Of a DNA stretch of 45,334 nucleotides, positions 13,222-29,503 are shown one piece after another. How positions within the stretch are numbered: position 1 is the first letter of the stretch; the number at the start of each line of letters is the position of its first letter. The stretch comes from Acidobacteriota bacterium. GTDB taxonomy: Bacteria > Acidobacteriota > UBA4820 > DSQY01. The stretch is taken from contig JAJYCJ010000001.1 in the NCBI GenBank assembly GCA_021778515.1, forward strand, positions 68,396-113,729, in the 5' to 3' direction. Under the pieces are notes generated by a model that did not search any database, was not told the origin of the DNA, and saw nothing but the letters and a program-made list of their open reading frames with translations. Made by a program: the position numbers and the translations under genes.

Positions 13222-14508
13222 ATGAACCTGGATCAATTTCTCAGGGGGGCAGCACCCGGCAGCGCGGCCCACACGCTCAGGGCCCTGCGCCACCGCAATT
13301 TCCGCCTCTTCTTCTTCGGCCAGCTCGTCTCCCTCATCGGAACCTGGATGCAGAGCCTCGCCCAGGGGTGGCTCGTCTGGCGGCTCAGCCACTCGGCCTG
13401 GCTGCTGGGCCTCGTGGGATTCTGCCAGATGGCGCCGGTGCTCTTCCTCGGGCTCCTGGGCGGCATCCTGGCGGACCGTTTCGACCGGCACAGGATGGTC
13501 ATCGCCACGCAGAGCGCCGCCCTCGTGCAGTCCGTCCTCCTGGCGGCGCTCACCCTGACCGGCGCGATCACCGTCTGGCAGATCATGGCCCTGGCCCTCC
13601 TGCTGGGCGTCGTCAACGCCTTCGACATGCCGATCCGGCAGGCCTTCCTCGTCCAGATGGTGGGACGGGAGGACCTGGGCAACGCCATCGCGCTCAACTC
13701 CTCCATCTTCAACGGGGCAAGGATCATCGGCCCGGCCGTGGCGGGATTGGTGGTGGCCCGATGGGGCGAGGGCATGTGCTTCAGCCTCAACGCCATCTCC
13801 TTCCTCGCGGTCCTCGCCAGCCTGATCGCCATGCGTCTAGACAAGCGCCCCCTCCCCCGGCCCGAGGGCAACACCGGCCAGAGGCTCGCGGAGGGGTTCT
13901 CCTACGCCTGGCGCACGCCCCACGTCCGGGTCCTCCTCTCCCTGATGATGGTGACGAGCCTCTTCGCCTTCCCCTTCACCTCGTTTTTGCCGGCCCTGGT
14001 GGGCGGCGTGCTCCACCAGGGCGCCGGTGGACTCGGCACCCTGATGACCTGCTCGGGCATCGGCGCGCTCCTGGGCGCCCTCGCCGTGGCCCGCCGGGAG
14101 GGCATCCGGGGGATGGGCCGGTTGGTGGGCACGACGGGCGCCGGGTTCGGCCTGTTCCTGATGGCCTTCGGCCTCTCCAGAAGCTTCTGGCTCTCCTGCG
14201 CGCTGATCCTGGCGGTCGGCTTCTGCATGATGATCCAGATGGCCTCCACCAACACGCTCCTCCAGAGCTTGGTCCCGGAGGAGCTCCGGGGCCGGCTCAT
14301 GAGCCTCTACACGGTGACCTTCGTCGGGGTGGCCCCCATCGGGAGCCTGCTGCTGGGCTGGCTGGCCCATTACCTGAAGATCCAGTGGGTGTTGGTGGGC
14401 GGAGGCGCCATCACGGCGGCGGCGGGAGTGGTTTTTATCTTCCTCGTCCCGAAAATCCGACCCTCCGTACTGCCCCTCCTGGCCGAGGGGACCGGGGAGT
14501 TCACCTAG
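13222..14508 (+). CDS. MFS exporter (EntS-like)
   Basis: A 428-residue polytopic protein. The N-terminal half shows LRHRNFRLFFFGQLVSLIGTWMQ, typical of the MFS_3/enterobactin-exporter-like branch, and GILADRFDRHRMV matches the conserved loop 2-3 motif A (G-x-x-x-D-R-x-x-R). About ten to twelve hydrophobic segments can be counted. The substrate is unknown; relatives export siderophores or drugs, but no siderophore genes lie nearby. It starts 36 nt after RNase J and may be read through from that promoter. Its TAG stop (14506-14508) lies inside the terminal repeat of the palindromic element that follows. Confidence 0.88.
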   Translation: MNLDQFLRGAAPGSAAHTLRALRHRNFRLFFFGQLVSLIGTWMQSLAQGWLVWRLSHSAWLLGLVGFCQMAPVLFLGLLGGILADRFDRHRMVIATQSAALVQSVLLAALTLTGAITVWQIMALALLLGVVNAFDMPIRQAFLVQMVGREDLGNAIALNSSIFNGARIIGPAVAGLVVARWGEGMCFSLNAISFLAVLASLIAMRLDKRPLPRPEGNTGQRLAEGFSYAWRTPHVRVLLSLMMVTSLFAFPFTSFLPALVGGVLHQGAGGLGTLMTCSGIGALLGALAVARREGIRGMGRLVGTTGAGFGLFLMAFGLSRSFWLSCALILAVGFCMMIQMASTNTLLQSLVPEELRGRLMSLYTVTFVGVAPIGSLLLGWLAHYLKIQWVLVGGGAITAAAGVVFIFLVPKIRPSVLPLLAEGTGEFT

Positions 14509-14701
14509 TGTGCTGTCCCAGTGATAGGTTCACCATGGAAGCAGGTGACAGACAGCACACGGAAGGGTGCGGGGAGGAAGCCTCCCCCCTCTTTCGGGGT
14601 AACAGCCCGCCGCAGGCGGGCTCCCTAGGGGCGGAGCCCCTTGGGAAGTGTTGTGCCCCGGGACAAGCCATTGTAAACAAATGACGGGGACACAACACTA
14701 G
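14505..14701. repeat. Composite palindromic (BIME/MITE-like) element, copy 1
   Basis: A 197-nt element filling the gap between the MFS and transglutaminase genes. The ends are inverted repeats: CTAGTGTGCTGTCCC at the left, and CTAGTGTTGTGTCCCC as the reverse complement of the right. Each end is a hairpin in its own right (left 14509-14559; right AGTGTTGTG at about 14647-14655 with CACAACACT at 14691-14699). Their loops are related in inverted orientation, both carrying a GTTnACnATGG-like core. Between them are GC stems: GCCCGCC-GCA-GGCGGGC, and GGGGC/GCCCC around CGGA. The right two-thirds matches copy 2 at 29360-29503. No transposase is encoded. Confidence 0.8.
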
Positions 14702-14720
14702 AAGGGAGATGGATCACATC

Positions 14721-15419
14721 ATGTCGGACGCCGCCCTCACATCGCATTCGGATCTCGCCGCCTACCTCCAGCCCTCGCCCGGCGTGGACTCGGACTCGGA
14801 GCGCGTGCTCGAACTCGCCGGAAGGCTGACTCGGGGGTCGCAGAACCCGGCCGAGACGGCGACGCGGCTCTTCGCCTACGTCCGGGACACGATCCGCTAC
14901 GTGCCCTACGCGCCGTTCGACTCGCTTCCGGCCTACACGGGCCAGGCCACCCTCGAACGCGGCTACGGCTTCTGCACCCAGAAGTCCGCCCTCCTCATCG
15001 CGCTGTCCCGCGCCGCGGGCATTCCCGCACGCTTCCACTACGCGGACCTCGTGAACCACAGCCTTCCCGAAAGGCTCGAGTGGGTCCTGGGATGCAACCG
15101 CATGGTCTACCACACGTACGTCGAGTTTCTTCTGGAGGGGCGCTGGATCAAGGCCACGCCCTCCTTCGAGAGGCAGCTGTGCGAGAAGATGGGGTGGCGC
15201 CTGGTGGAGTTCGACGGCACCTCGGACGCCATCCTCCACCGGACCGACCTCTCCGGGCGACTGCACGTGGAGTACGCCGCCGACAGGGGCACCGACGCGG
15301 GGGTTCCCCTATCCCTCATGCTCGATGCCTGGATGCGGGAGTACGGACCGGAGACCCTGGGCCGCTGGCAGCAGGCCGTGGCGGGGAAGGGATTCTGGGG
15401 CAACGGCAGCCGCGGGTGA
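14721..15419 (+). CDS. Transglutaminase-like cysteine peptidase-fold protein
   Basis: The product has 232 residues from the ATG at 14721. An in-frame ATG at 14709 abuts the GGGAG ribosome site and is less likely. The transglutaminase-like core is visible: 'ATRLFAYVRDTIRYVPYAPF', the catalytic cysteine in GYGFCTQKSALLIALSRAAGIPAR split across residues ~80-105, then 'MVYHTYVEFLLEGRWIKATPSFE' with the catalytic histidine. Such proteins can be peptidases, amidases or inactive. There is no signal peptide, so it is probably cytosolic. The translation start lies 20 nt past the repeat element, and transcription may begin within or before that element. Confidence 0.82.
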   Translation: MSDAALTSHSDLAAYLQPSPGVDSDSERVLELAGRLTRGSQNPAETATRLFAYVRDTIRYVPYAPFDSLPAYTGQATLERGYGFCTQKSALLIALSRAAGIPARFHYADLVNHSLPERLEWVLGCNRMVYHTYVEFLLEGRWIKATPSFERQLCEKMGWRLVEFDGTSDAILHRTDLSGRLHVEYAADRGTDAGVPLSLMLDAWMREYGPETLGRWQQAVAGKGFWGNGSRG

Positions 15420-25954: not shown

Positions 25955-27211
25955 ATGAGCCACGAAGAGCAGATTCGAAGCATACTGGCCGAGCAGTTCG
26001 AAAAGCTCCAGAACAATCTGGAAAACCTCCGGAGCATGCTGCAGGACCTGGTGCTGGCGGTCCCCTCCCCCCCGGACCCGCAGCGCCTGGCCGCGGCCAT
26101 CTCCGAAGCCATTCCGGAACCGGAGCCCTCCCTCCTTCCCGAGCCGCCGGCGCAACCAGCGGCGGTTTCGGCGCCCCTCAACAACTCGCTCCTCTATAGG
26201 ATGGGTTCCATTGAATACGCCGAAAGCCAGGGGGAGATCCTGAACCACCTGGCGAAGGGCGTTGAAGACTTCGCCGAGCGGGGTGTGCTCTTCGTGGTCC
26301 GGGGCGATACCGCGCAGGCCTGGAACTCCTTCGGGTTCGACGCGGAGGAGGTCCGCGGCTGGAAGGTGCAGGTGGACAGGGACCCCATCCTCCAGACGGT
26401 GGCGGCCTCCCGCACCCGAATGTTGCTGGACAGGACGCTCCCGGCCTTCATTCCGGTCCCGGGCCCGGTCCGAAGAAGCCTCATCTCCCCGCTCCTGCTG
26501 AAGGGCAAGATGCTCGCCTTCGTCTACGCCGATTCGGGAGAGGCGGGAAAACTGGACCATTACAGCGTGGATATCCTGGTGAGGACCGCCTCTCTCGTGA
26601 TCGATATCTTCCCTCTCAAGGCCAAGCGGGATCCCCTGCCGCCGACCCTCGAAAGCCAGGAGATCGTCCTGCCGGGCCAGGAGCCGGCGACCAAGGCTTC
26701 GGAGGATGCATTTCTCTTCGAGGACAGCGGGACCCTGGCCTCCGAGCCTTCGTCCGAGGACCTTCCCGGCAACCAGACCATGCTGGCGGAAATCCCCAGG
26801 GAGGCCATGGGCGAGCCCCCGGCCGAAGCGGAGGCAGAACCCGAGGAAGTGGTGGAGGAAGCCACCATCGTGGAGGAGGTGCCCGGCGCACCGGAGGTCG
26901 AGTCCACGGTCCCCACGCCGGAGCTTGAGCCGGCGCCGCCTGCCGTTTCGCCGGGCGACGAGAAACTCCACGAGGACGCCAAGCGCTTCGCCCGCCTCCT
27001 GGTCCAGGAGATCGCCCTGTACCATCCCAAAGAGGTGGATCAGGGCAAGCGGACGAAGAGCCTGTACTCCCTGCTCAGGGAAGACATCGATCGGAGCCGG
27101 GAGGCCTATGACCATCGGTTCCAGCAACCCTCGGTTCAGGCCCAGGACTACTTCGGCAAGGCCCTCGTCAACTACCTGGCGGACGGGGACACCGGCCTCA
27201 TGGGCACTTAG
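25955..27211 (+). CDS. GAF-like domain protein with acidic Pro/Glu linker
   Basis: A 418-residue cytosolic protein. An N-terminal coiled coil (QIRSILAEQFEKLQNNLENLRSML split by the length limit; residues ~5-32) leads into a Pro-rich linker. Residues ~85-225 form a GAF-like unit (AESQGEILNHLAKGVEDFAER, GVLFVVRGD, 'SLISPLLLKGKMLAFVYADS', 'VDILVRTASLVID'). A long acidic Glu/Pro-rich tract spans ~245-340. The last ~70 residues form a conserved helical end (EDAKRFARLLVQEIALYHP). The architecture recurs in acidobacterial-type proteins of unknown role. GAF domains bind small ligands, but no ligand residues can be assigned. Its 3' end overlaps the only canonical start for slt. Confidence 0.65.
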   Translation: MSHEEQIRSILAEQFEKLQNNLENLRSMLQDLVLAVPSPPDPQRLAAAISEAIPEPEPSLLPEPPAQPAAVSAPLNNSLLYRMGSIEYAESQGEILNHLAKGVEDFAERGVLFVVRGDTAQAWNSFGFDAEEVRGWKVQVDRDPILQTVAASRTRMLLDRTLPAFIPVPGPVRRSLISPLLLKGKMLAFVYADSGEAGKLDHYSVDILVRTASLVIDIFPLKAKRDPLPPTLESQEIVLPGQEPATKASEDAFLFEDSGTLASEPSSEDLPGNQTMLAEIPREAMGEPPAEAEAEPEEVVEEATIVEEVPGAPEVESTVPTPELEPAPPAVSPGDEKLHEDAKRFARLLVQEIALYHPKEVDQGKRTKSLYSLLREDIDRSREAYDHRFQQPSVQAQDYFGKALVNYLADGDTGLMGT

Positions 27212-29363
27212 AGCCGTCGTCGTTCTGCTCCTTCTTCCCCTCACCGCGGGCCGCGCCCAGACGCGTCCCGGAGTTGATGTGTGGCAATCTCTCGCCTCCC
27301 TGCAAGGCGAGGCCAGGGTGCGCGCCATCGTGAGGGCCCTGGCCACTCCGCGGGATCCCTCTGACGCGGGGACCCTGCACATCCTCTTGGGCCGAGCCTA
27401 CGAGGCCCAGGGGCAACCGGACTCGGCGATCCAGGCGTACTCGGATGCATCCGTCCTCTCTTCGAGCCTCTGGGAGTACGGAATAGACTGGGAAGCGAGG
27501 CTCCTCGAACAGCAGGGGCGCTCGGCCCAGGCCCTGCCGCTGTGGCGCCGGCTCTTCGCGGCCACGCCGCAACCCTCCTTCCGGCTGGAGGCGGCGCGGG
27601 CCATCCTGGAGGACCTGCCGGCTAGAGGAGCCGAGGCGGAGGCCATTCCTTGTGCCGAGGCCCTGCATCAGGCGGCGCCCTCCGATCCCGAATGGATGGC
27701 CAGGCTGGCCGTCCTCTACGAGGATTCGGGCCGCGGGGCGGACGCTGAATCGATGGTTCGCAACCTCTGGATCCACCATCCCACGAGTAGACAGACCCAT
27801 GAGCTGCTCTCCCGGAGGCCCGAATTCAGAGGCTGGGCGGAGCGCTTGCCTCCGGCGGATCAGCTCCTCCATCTCCGGTCTCTCGCGGAGACCGGGCAGT
27901 GGACCGAGCTTCGCAGGGAGCTGCCGGCCTTCCTTCCCTCCTCGCCCTCCGAGGCGGGCTGGCGGCGCTACCTGGCCGGTCGCCTGCTCGAAGCACGAGG
28001 GCGCCTGGGAGAAGCAGCCAAGGATTACGCGGGGTTGGCGATCCCTCCGGAGGCGGCGGCGGCGAGCAAGGTGAGGCTCGGGTTGCTGGCCGCCGCAGGA
28101 GCGCTCTCGGGAAAGTCGGCGGCGGCGGCCGAGGCCGGCCTTCTCGGGCTCCCCGTCGATACGCCCGGGCGGGGCCGCTCCCTCCTGGTGCTCATGCGCG
28201 GGTACGACCATCAGGGCAACGAGGGGAAGGCCGTGCGGATCGCGGAGGCGCTGTTGGCGGGAGGGTTCGGCCAGACGGTCGCCGGCGAATACCTGTATGA
28301 GTCCGGGTGGCATTACGTCATGGCCGGGCAGCGGAACCGCGCGGACGGCCTGTGGCGGGTGCTCGTGAAGGCCCTGCCCCCCACCAGCGATTACCGGAGC
28401 GCGGCGGCCTACTCCCTCATCAGGCTCGGCCGCGTTTCGGGAGAGGAGGCGGCGGCGCTGCGCGCGGACATACTCCGCGAGGACCGATACGGCTACTTCG
28501 GCTACAGGTTGCGGGGCGGGCCGCCGGCGCCCGACCAGCCGGCTCCGCCACCGCCCGCTCCAGTGCCTGCACAGCCGGGAAGTCACGCGGCCAAGGGCTT
28601 CGAGCTCCTCCGCTGCGGGCTCCTCCCGGAGGCTGGCGGAGAGTTCGAGATGGCTTCGCGGGCGGCCGACGACCCCGGCACCCAGTGGGCCATGGCCATG
28701 GCCCTGGCCGAGGCCGACGACTACCCCGGAGCCATCCGCGGCCTCCGCCGGCTCTATCCGAAGGCCTTCGGCCAGTCTGGGGACAGCGTCCCCGCGGAAG
28801 CCTGGCGGATTCTATTCCCCAGGCCCTTCTGGCCCGAAGTGAGGACGGCGGCCAGCACCTTCGACCTGCCGGTCTTCTTCGTCTGCTCGGTGATCCGCCA
28901 GGAAAGCCTCTGGGATCCCGGCGCCCTCTCGGCCTCGGGCGCCGTGGGGCTCATGCAGCTCCTTCCGGGGACGGCCAGGGCGGTGGCCCGGAAATTCGAT
29001 CTTAAGCACACCGACCTCTCGCGCCTGAGGGATCCCGCGTGGAACGCCCTGGCGGGCTGCGCCTACATGACCGAGATGCTCAAGCGGTACGGTGGCCAAG
29101 TGCATCTGGCGCTGGCTGCCTACAACGCCGGCCCCGGGCGGGTGGACGAGTGGCTCCGCCGGCCCGGATGCCCCAAAGACCCCGATCTCTTCATCGAATC
29201 CATACCTTTCCGGGAGACGCGTTCCTACGTCCGCAGGATTCTCTTGAACCAGTGGGAGTACGGCAGGCTGTATGCGGCCGGGACGGGTGGGGCCGCCGGG
29301 GCCGAGGCGCACCCGTTCGCGCCGGACGCCCGGCCAGCGGGGGTCCCCTCCACGACACCTTAG
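27108..29363 (+). CDS. slt: Soluble lytic murein transglycosylase with TPR-like superhelix
   Basis: The product has about 751 residues. The only canonical in-frame start near the signal peptide is the ATG at 27108 (GGGAGG just upstream), which overlaps the previous gene by 104 nt. It leaves ~33 Arg/Thr-rich residues before the hydrophobic signal ALRAVVVLLLLPLTAGRAQ. The open frame further upstream is a shadow of the GAF-like gene. Residues ~55-560 are helical TPR-like repeats, as in Slt70. The lysozyme-like SLT domain has the catalytic Glu599 in RQESLWDPGALSASGAVGLM, then QLLPGTA, and LALAAYNAGPGRVDEWL. It cleaves glycan strands to anhydro-MurNAc products, which would feed the sugar recycling suggested by amgK. 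The TAG stop lies in the repeat element. Confidence 0.88.
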   Translation: MTIGSSNPRFRPRTTSARPSSTTWRTGTPASWALRAVVVLLLLPLTAGRAQTRPGVDVWQSLASLQGEARVRAIVRALATPRDPSDAGTLHILLGRAYEAQGQPDSAIQAYSDASVLSSSLWEYGIDWEARLLEQQGRSAQALPLWRRLFAATPQPSFRLEAARAILEDLPARGAEAEAIPCAEALHQAAPSDPEWMARLAVLYEDSGRGADAESMVRNLWIHHPTSRQTHELLSRRPEFRGWAERLPPADQLLHLRSLAETGQWTELRRELPAFLPSSPSEAGWRRYLAGRLLEARGRLGEAAKDYAGLAIPPEAAAASKVRLGLLAAAGALSGKSAAAAEAGLLGLPVDTPGRGRSLLVLMRGYDHQGNEGKAVRIAEALLAGGFGQTVAGEYLYESGWHYVMAGQRNRADGLWRVLVKALPPTSDYRSAAAYSLIRLGRVSGEEAAALRADILREDRYGYFGYRLRGGPPAPDQPAPPPPAPVPAQPGSHAAKGFELLRCGLLPEAGGEFEMASRAADDPGTQWAMAMALAEADDYPGAIRGLRRLYPKAFGQSGDSVPAEAWRILFPRPFWPEVRTAASTFDLPVFFVCSVIRQESLWDPGALSASGAVGLMQLLPGTARAVARKFDLKHTDLSRLRDPAWNALAGCAYMTEMLKRYGGQVHLALAAYNAGPGRVDEWLRRPGCPKDPDLFIESIPFRETRSYVRRILLNQWEYGRLYAAGTGGAAGAEAHPFAPDARPAGVPSTTP

Positions 29364-29503
29364 TGAGATGTCCCGGACGGGAGCTCCCCGCCCCTTCGGG
29401 GCAACGGCCCGCCGCAGGCGGGCGCCCTGGGGGCGGAGCCCCTGGGGAGTGTTGTGTCCCGGGAAGAAGCCATGGTAAACACGACACGGGGACGCGACAC
29501 TAG
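29360..29503. repeat. Composite palindromic (BIME/MITE-like) element, copy 2
   Basis: A 144-nt element between slt and the next gene. It shares with copy 1 the GCCCGCC-GCA-GGCGGGC stem, the GGGGCGGAGCCCC stem and the right terminal hairpin (AGTGTTGTGTCCC with GGGGACGCGACACT). Both copies end in ACACTAG. The left end is reduced to TTAGTGAGATGTCCCG, so most of the left hairpin of copy 1 is missing. The orientation matches copy 1. As there, the TAG stop of the upstream gene (29361-29363) lies in the terminal repeat, and the next ribosome site follows within about 10 nt. Confidence 0.8.

Follow-up and report, generated by a model that had tools for sequence, protein, structure and literature searches.

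The window examined here, a stretch of 45,334 nucleotides from contig 55 of G000, a draft acidobacterial genome (3.34 Mb), contains two copies of a palindromic sequence, each placed so that the TAG stop codon of the upstream gene lies within its terminal (C/T)TAG, as originally predicted. This arrangement raises the questions of whether the sequence is mobile, which type of transposase moved it and how it came to overlap stop codons. It is very probably a non-autonomous IS630-type (Tc1/mariner-like DDE) MITE of ~191 bp that was moved in trans into the TA of CTAG.

The window copies and their relatives

Copy 1 (14505..14701, + strand) is a complete MITE that, together with the duplicated target, reads CTAG...CTAG, as delimited by alignment and by a single-CTAG empty site in the sister species. 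The element proper (191 bp, 14508-14698) is bounded by target-site TA dinucleotides at 14506..14507 on the left and 14699..14700 on the right (neither assigned to a strand), the former overlapping the TAG stop codon (14506-14508) of the gene for an MFS transporter (13222..14508, + strand; PF05977, PF07690), which ends within the target CTAG. Immediately to the right of the copy, a ribosome-binding-like AAGGGAG precedes the gene for a transglutaminase-like protein (14709..15419, + strand; PF01841). The left terminal inverted repeat, GTGTGCTGTCCCAGTGATAGGTTCACCATGG (14508..14538, + strand), has its counterpart at 14668..14698 on the minus strand (reverse complement GTGTTGTGTCCCCGTCATTTGTTTACAATGG), and the 34-nt end arms at 14505-14538 and 14668-14701 are 76% complementary. 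Each end is also a hairpin of its own. The left one (14508..14560, + strand; helix 1) has the stem GTGTGCTGTC/GACAGCACAC, with arms 14508-14517/14551-14560 that are 100% complementary, and the right one (14648..14699, + strand; helix 5) has the stem GTGTTGTGTCCC/GGGACACAACAC, with arms 14647-14659/14687-14699 that are 92% complementary. Between them lies a GC-rich core of three hairpins (14561..14646, + strand; helices 2-4). Copy 1 folds much more strongly than shuffled sequences do (z = -6.4 as DNA and -5.8 as RNA). The same plan, namely, CTAG, left hairpin, GC core with hairpins, right hairpin and CTAG, is constant across the aligned copies. The description of a composite palindromic element with inverted ends is thus borne out by the arms and end hairpins of copy 1.

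Copy 2 was likewise located where the original prediction had placed it (29360..29503, + strand; TTAG...CTAG), downstream of a gene for a lytic transglycosylase (slt) with TPR repeats (26706..29363, + strand; PF01464), the TAG stop of which is inside the target, and it too has a single-CTAG empty site in the sister species. At 84% over query positions 78-197, it matches copy 1 in the GC core and in the right hairpin, its right terminal hairpin lying at 29449..29500 (+ strand) and its right terminal inverted repeat at 29470-29500. By contrast, most of the left hairpin is deleted, with only TTAGTGAGATGTCCCGG left, and copy 2 was therefore correctly regarded as an internal-deletion derivative.

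A BLAST-type search of G000 with copy 1 yielded 19 significant places. Besides copy 1 itself, the inventory of this genome comprises 11 full-span copies, of which one has a degraded right end, as well as copy 2 and several partial pieces. The 12 full-span copies, counting copy 1, are of an element too short to encode a transposase. In the sister species G001 (Acidobacteria bacterium DBS2-1.bin89), we found at least 13 near-complete copies and several fragments; this was also the only match when the exact end pattern was scanned in 84,980 species. Given so many further copies in G000 and G001, chance is excluded as the origin of the likeness between the copies, and the view of the sequence as a dispersed element is upheld. 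Aligned full copies share on average 81% pairwise identity in G000 and 93% in G001, and no two of them are identical, indicating that the activity of the element was not very recent.

Further features were noticed, mainly in G001. Three separate copies (L094:2490-2980, L100:4187-4334 and L101:4112-4490) have a second repeat (150-490 bp, with ends like CATGGCTGTCCAAAA) inside the loop of their right hairpin, near a CATNGTAAAC motif. A palindrome like CGCCTTCTTCCGCTTCGCTCCGGAAGGCG is present in more than 25 places in G001, inside the nested repeat and, in G000, in the left flank of L010. Finally, the first 130 nt of L104 (L104:1-130, at the start of contig C76 of G001) look by eye like a group II intron 3' end with a domain V/VI-like part; they end in CCTACCTAT and abut the right hairpin of one copy at the contig edge.

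Empty sites and the overlap with stop codons

Predicted empty sites, consisting of the left flank, CTAG and the right flank, were sought reciprocally in G000 and G001 and then aligned. At ten orthologous positions, one species has a clean insertion and the other an empty site: L001 (window copy 1), L005, L009, L011 and L012 (window copy 2) are filled in G000, and L090, L092, L093, L094 and L095 in G001. The unclean orthologous sites L003, L004, L008, L091, L096, L100 and L103 were left out of the ten. The filled and empty sites prove that the dispersed element is mobile, as had been proposed.

Each of the clean empty sites has one CTAG, except for that of L005, which has GTAG, and filled sites have two. 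The filled L005 reads GTAG-element-CTAG, and the L002/L098 site, filled in both species, likewise has the form GTAG...CTAG. The configuration at L005 disfavours a 4-bp duplication; the sites fit duplication of TA within CTAG, and duplication of TAG is also compatible. Although CTAG at both ends of most copies could be taken to suggest that a DDE element with a 4-bp duplication (IS5 or IS701 type, with YTAR targets) founded the family, the conversion of a GTAG empty site into GTAG...CTAG, the same form at the second, shared site and end sequences that match IS630, not IS5 or IS701, make such an origin most improbable. The right end of the element is CTAG in most copies, and GTAG occurs just on the target side, in three copies representing two loci. 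Left-end tetranucleotides are somewhat more variable than right-end ones. In L012 and L094, the left tetranucleotide differs, yet the matching empty sites keep an intact CTAG, so that in these two copies it decayed after insertion. Because CTAG is palindromic, the doubled-CTAG footprint does not by itself discriminate against a Y1-type insertion beside the tetranucleotide. Insertion of IS630/ISY100 into TA, with TA duplication, is experimentally established (PMC2170065), and a preference of IS630 for CTAG has been reported (PMC2170065, citing Tenzen and Ohtsubo 1991).

According to the original prediction, the terminal repeat supplies the stop codon of the upstream gene. However, the empty sites of the sister species already have the same TAG as part of CTAG, so the element did not supply the stop but inserted into it; the TAG stop codon is part of the insertion target. 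Outside the copies, CTAG is ~8-fold depleted over 209 kb from the window and G001, with 81 occurrences observed versus 632 expected from base composition; depletion of this tetranucleotide is known in other bacteria. Insertions lie on a stop codon in 16 of 26 cases, compared to 5 of 64 other CTAG sites that fall on the TAG of a coding-like ORF (Fisher p = 2.5e-7), the 64 being those with enough flank and the comparison being approximate, given that ORFs were called from their length and third-position GC. In 13 of the 16 stop-codon insertions, it is the left end that falls on the upstream stop, a weak orientation bias (binomial p = 0.02). The simplest reading of the stop-codon bias is target choice combined with loss of gene-breaking insertions: since CTAG is rare in this GC-rich genome and intragenic insertions are presumably purged, surviving insertions would concentrate at TAG stops spanned by CTAG. 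Purifying selection is thus the presumed cause of the bias.

Terminal repeats and the transposase

The ends of the element are ~33-bp inverted repeats of the IS630 kind. We ran the end pattern, allowing up to two mismatches, on 396 Acidobacteriota genomes. Outside the genus, it matches solely the two ends, inverted and separated by 1141 bp, of an intact IS630 element (L225, in G295); the reversed pattern used as a control gave one match in all across the 396 genomes. The pattern was composed with L225 already known, but every fixed letter in it is shared by both ends of the MITE. Both ends match those of L225 at 27 of 33 positions, the right one in its G001 consensus form, and the left terminal inverted repeat of copy 1, with TA, is identical to the L225 end at 25 of 33. 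The protein encoded by L225 (370 aa) contains DDE_3 and HTH domains. A second link comes from the sister genus, in which G007 carries an IS630 pseudogene element (L185) with one stop within the gene. The outer 24 bases of its left end, CTAGTGTCCTGTAACAGCGGTTCGCT, counted from the TA, recur unchanged at the left end of the element in its sister-genus form. Across a set of 297 Acidobacteriota genomes, relatives of the L185 transposase are bounded by CTAG-flanked sequences of the TAGTGTnnTGTCtC type.

These matches are consistent with a mechanism in which an IS630-family transposase supplied in trans would bind the ~33-bp terminal inverted repeats, excise the element and integrate it at the TA within a CTAG target, with duplication of that TA. 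With insertions inside genes presumably purged, the survivors would accumulate where CTAG spans the TAG stop between tightly spaced genes. Among the family genomes, DDE_3 is present in G007 alone; the copy-bearing genomes G000, G001, G002 and G005, which are incomplete draft MAGs, yielded no DDE_3/IS630 gene. Repeated IS copies are often missing from incomplete draft genomes. Within the genus, end-pattern searches for an autonomous element with exact genus-type ends recovered just copies that were truncated or carried nested inserts. We infer that the transposase that mobilized the element in trans has since been lost or is missing from the assemblies. One feature is unaccounted for by the IS630 model, namely, the inner arm that turns each end of the element into a hairpin, because IS630 elements do not carry it.

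The mobilizing enzyme had originally been sought among the Y1 (RAYT/IS200-like) transposases, which would move the element as single-stranded DNA, in the manner of a BIME/REPIN-like pair of REPs, with CTAG taking the place of the GTAG tag of REPs. The element indeed comprises two palindromic units, inverted around a spacer, its end hairpins are maintained through compensatory change, and the greater variability of the left-end tetranucleotides points in the same direction, except that at least in L012 and L094 it represents drift. Furthermore, Y1_Tnp genes are present in eight of the nine family genomes, including G000 and G001, and a subgroup of 222-aa Y1 proteins is flanked by GTATTGTGTCCCC, which is like the stem GTGTTGTGTCCCC. 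However, among 30 Y1_Tnp loci inspected in the nine family genomes, none is located between the hairpins of the element or flanked by its repeat, the flanks being different or repeat-less; the Y1 subgroups (L111-L139, nine genomes) have flanking inverted repeats of their own, for instance, GGGGTCAGGTCTTTAGTGTTAGC, TGGGGTCACATCTTGC, CCGGGGACACAATAC and GGGGTCAGGTCTTT, or REP arrays. In addition, the loops and the full 33-bp ends match IS630 ends, which is unexpected under Y1 recognition, and the two ends are inverted 33-bp repeats, a requirement of DDE elements. With no Y1 gene bearing these ends, and with the ends matching IS630, Y1 mobilization appears very unlikely and its earlier proposal was probably wrong. 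A link to Y1 through a similar 13-nt flank in one Y1 subgroup (12/13) was considered and judged insufficient relative to the 33-nt IS630 match.

Comparison with described repeats leads to the same distinction. GTAG-tagged REPs with RAYTs, as well as TIR-flanked Y1 genes in Acidobacteria, have been described (PMC3733652). BIME/REPIN and GTAG-tagged REPs resemble the acidobacterial element in that palindromic units form inverted pairs in intergenic positions and the hairpin foot bears a tetranucleotide (PMC3733652). The acidobacterial element differs in that its end hairpins span 52 nt and have long conserved loops, its right end is CTAG rather than a GTAG-type tag, none of the inspected Y1 genes has the same ends, and its footprint and ends fit a DDE element. 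It shares with IS630 and ISY100 the matching ends (those of acidobacterial IS630), TA duplication and CTAG preference (PMC2170065), but has no transposase gene and possesses a structured core and inner stem arms. The nearest concept is RUP, a pneumococcal MITE proposed to be mobilized in trans by IS630-Spn1, which is similarly a small (107 bp), non-coding, dispersed repeat with TA targets and ends matching an IS630-family element (PMC2229807). Its sequence, however, is unrelated, its partner IS resides in the same genome, its TIR is given as 9 bp, compared to ~33 bp in the acidobacterial element, and the part of the RUP account consulted here describes no CTAG or stop-codon pattern (PMC2229807). 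The Correia/NEMIS elements of Neisseria are MITEs of 100-160 bp with terminal TA, 24-bp inverted ends, base-paired transcripts, shorter and longer forms, and empty sites (PMC2229807), but are unrelated in sequence and host, and the acidobacterial element is distinguished by its hairpin ends and a core combined with two end types. Overall, the element is real and mobile, has good support for its mechanism and represents a new family of IS630-type MITE, the kind itself being ordinary and already known.

Conserved hairpins and a core with two end types

The folds of copy 1 and of a sister-genus copy contain the same five hairpins. When this structure is placed on 28 aligned copies from the two genera, 95.7% of the cells pair. 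Two-sided changes are found in 14 pairs and amount to 54 cells, versus 14.4 in shuffles and at most 8 with the partner slid, although these cells count sequences rather than independent events and many are common to the seven sister-genus copies. Within the genus, the right stem pairs better within than between copies (197 versus 185, 0/2000 shuffles), and the left stem only weakly so. In consensus Watson-Crick pairs, G-T cells are not favoured over A-C cells (18 versus 31), and, as G-T cells do not outnumber A-C cells, no strand-specific selection on RNA is visible.

This conservation might reflect a terminator or a stabilizer of mRNA 3' ends that is maintained by the host and is only incidentally mobile, a possibility that concerns function rather than origin and is compatible with an IS630 MITE. 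Retention of the five hairpins between genera through two-sided changes would fit such a role, as would the better conservation of the core compared to the ends and the placement of the left end at the upstream stop. The terminator scan, however, revealed no terminator-like T-run and the Rfam scan no match, the G-T and A-C counts carry no strand-specific RNA signal, no site is obligatory given that the copies differ between the sister species, and palindrome-correcting mutation could yield the same compensatory changes. A host role of this kind therefore appears unlikely.

In the sister genus, the core (query positions 47-157) is 88-90% identical, whereas the end loops are different. In a single G000 copy (L014/L200, on contig C42), the same core is combined with ends of the sister-genus type. 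The two end types, which are different IS630-type ends from different genera, each have their own matching inner arm. The same core with differing ends in two genera indicates that the core has moved about with two or more types of IS630 end. It is conceivable, if distinctly improbable, that the five hairpins constitute a module, of DNA or RNA, that survives the loss of its transposases and is perhaps selected, by the host or the element, for a role at gene ends while its mobility signals are swapped.

The exchanged ends and the conserved hairpins are the sole points of wider interest, and a common core with exchanged ends offers a tractable case for studying how MITEs persist after loss of the transposase. 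A CTAG-targeting transposase acting in a CTAG-poor genome would provide a simple account of why such elements overlap stop codons, and a previously unlabelled repeat in an uncultured acidobacterial lineage now has a named mechanism.
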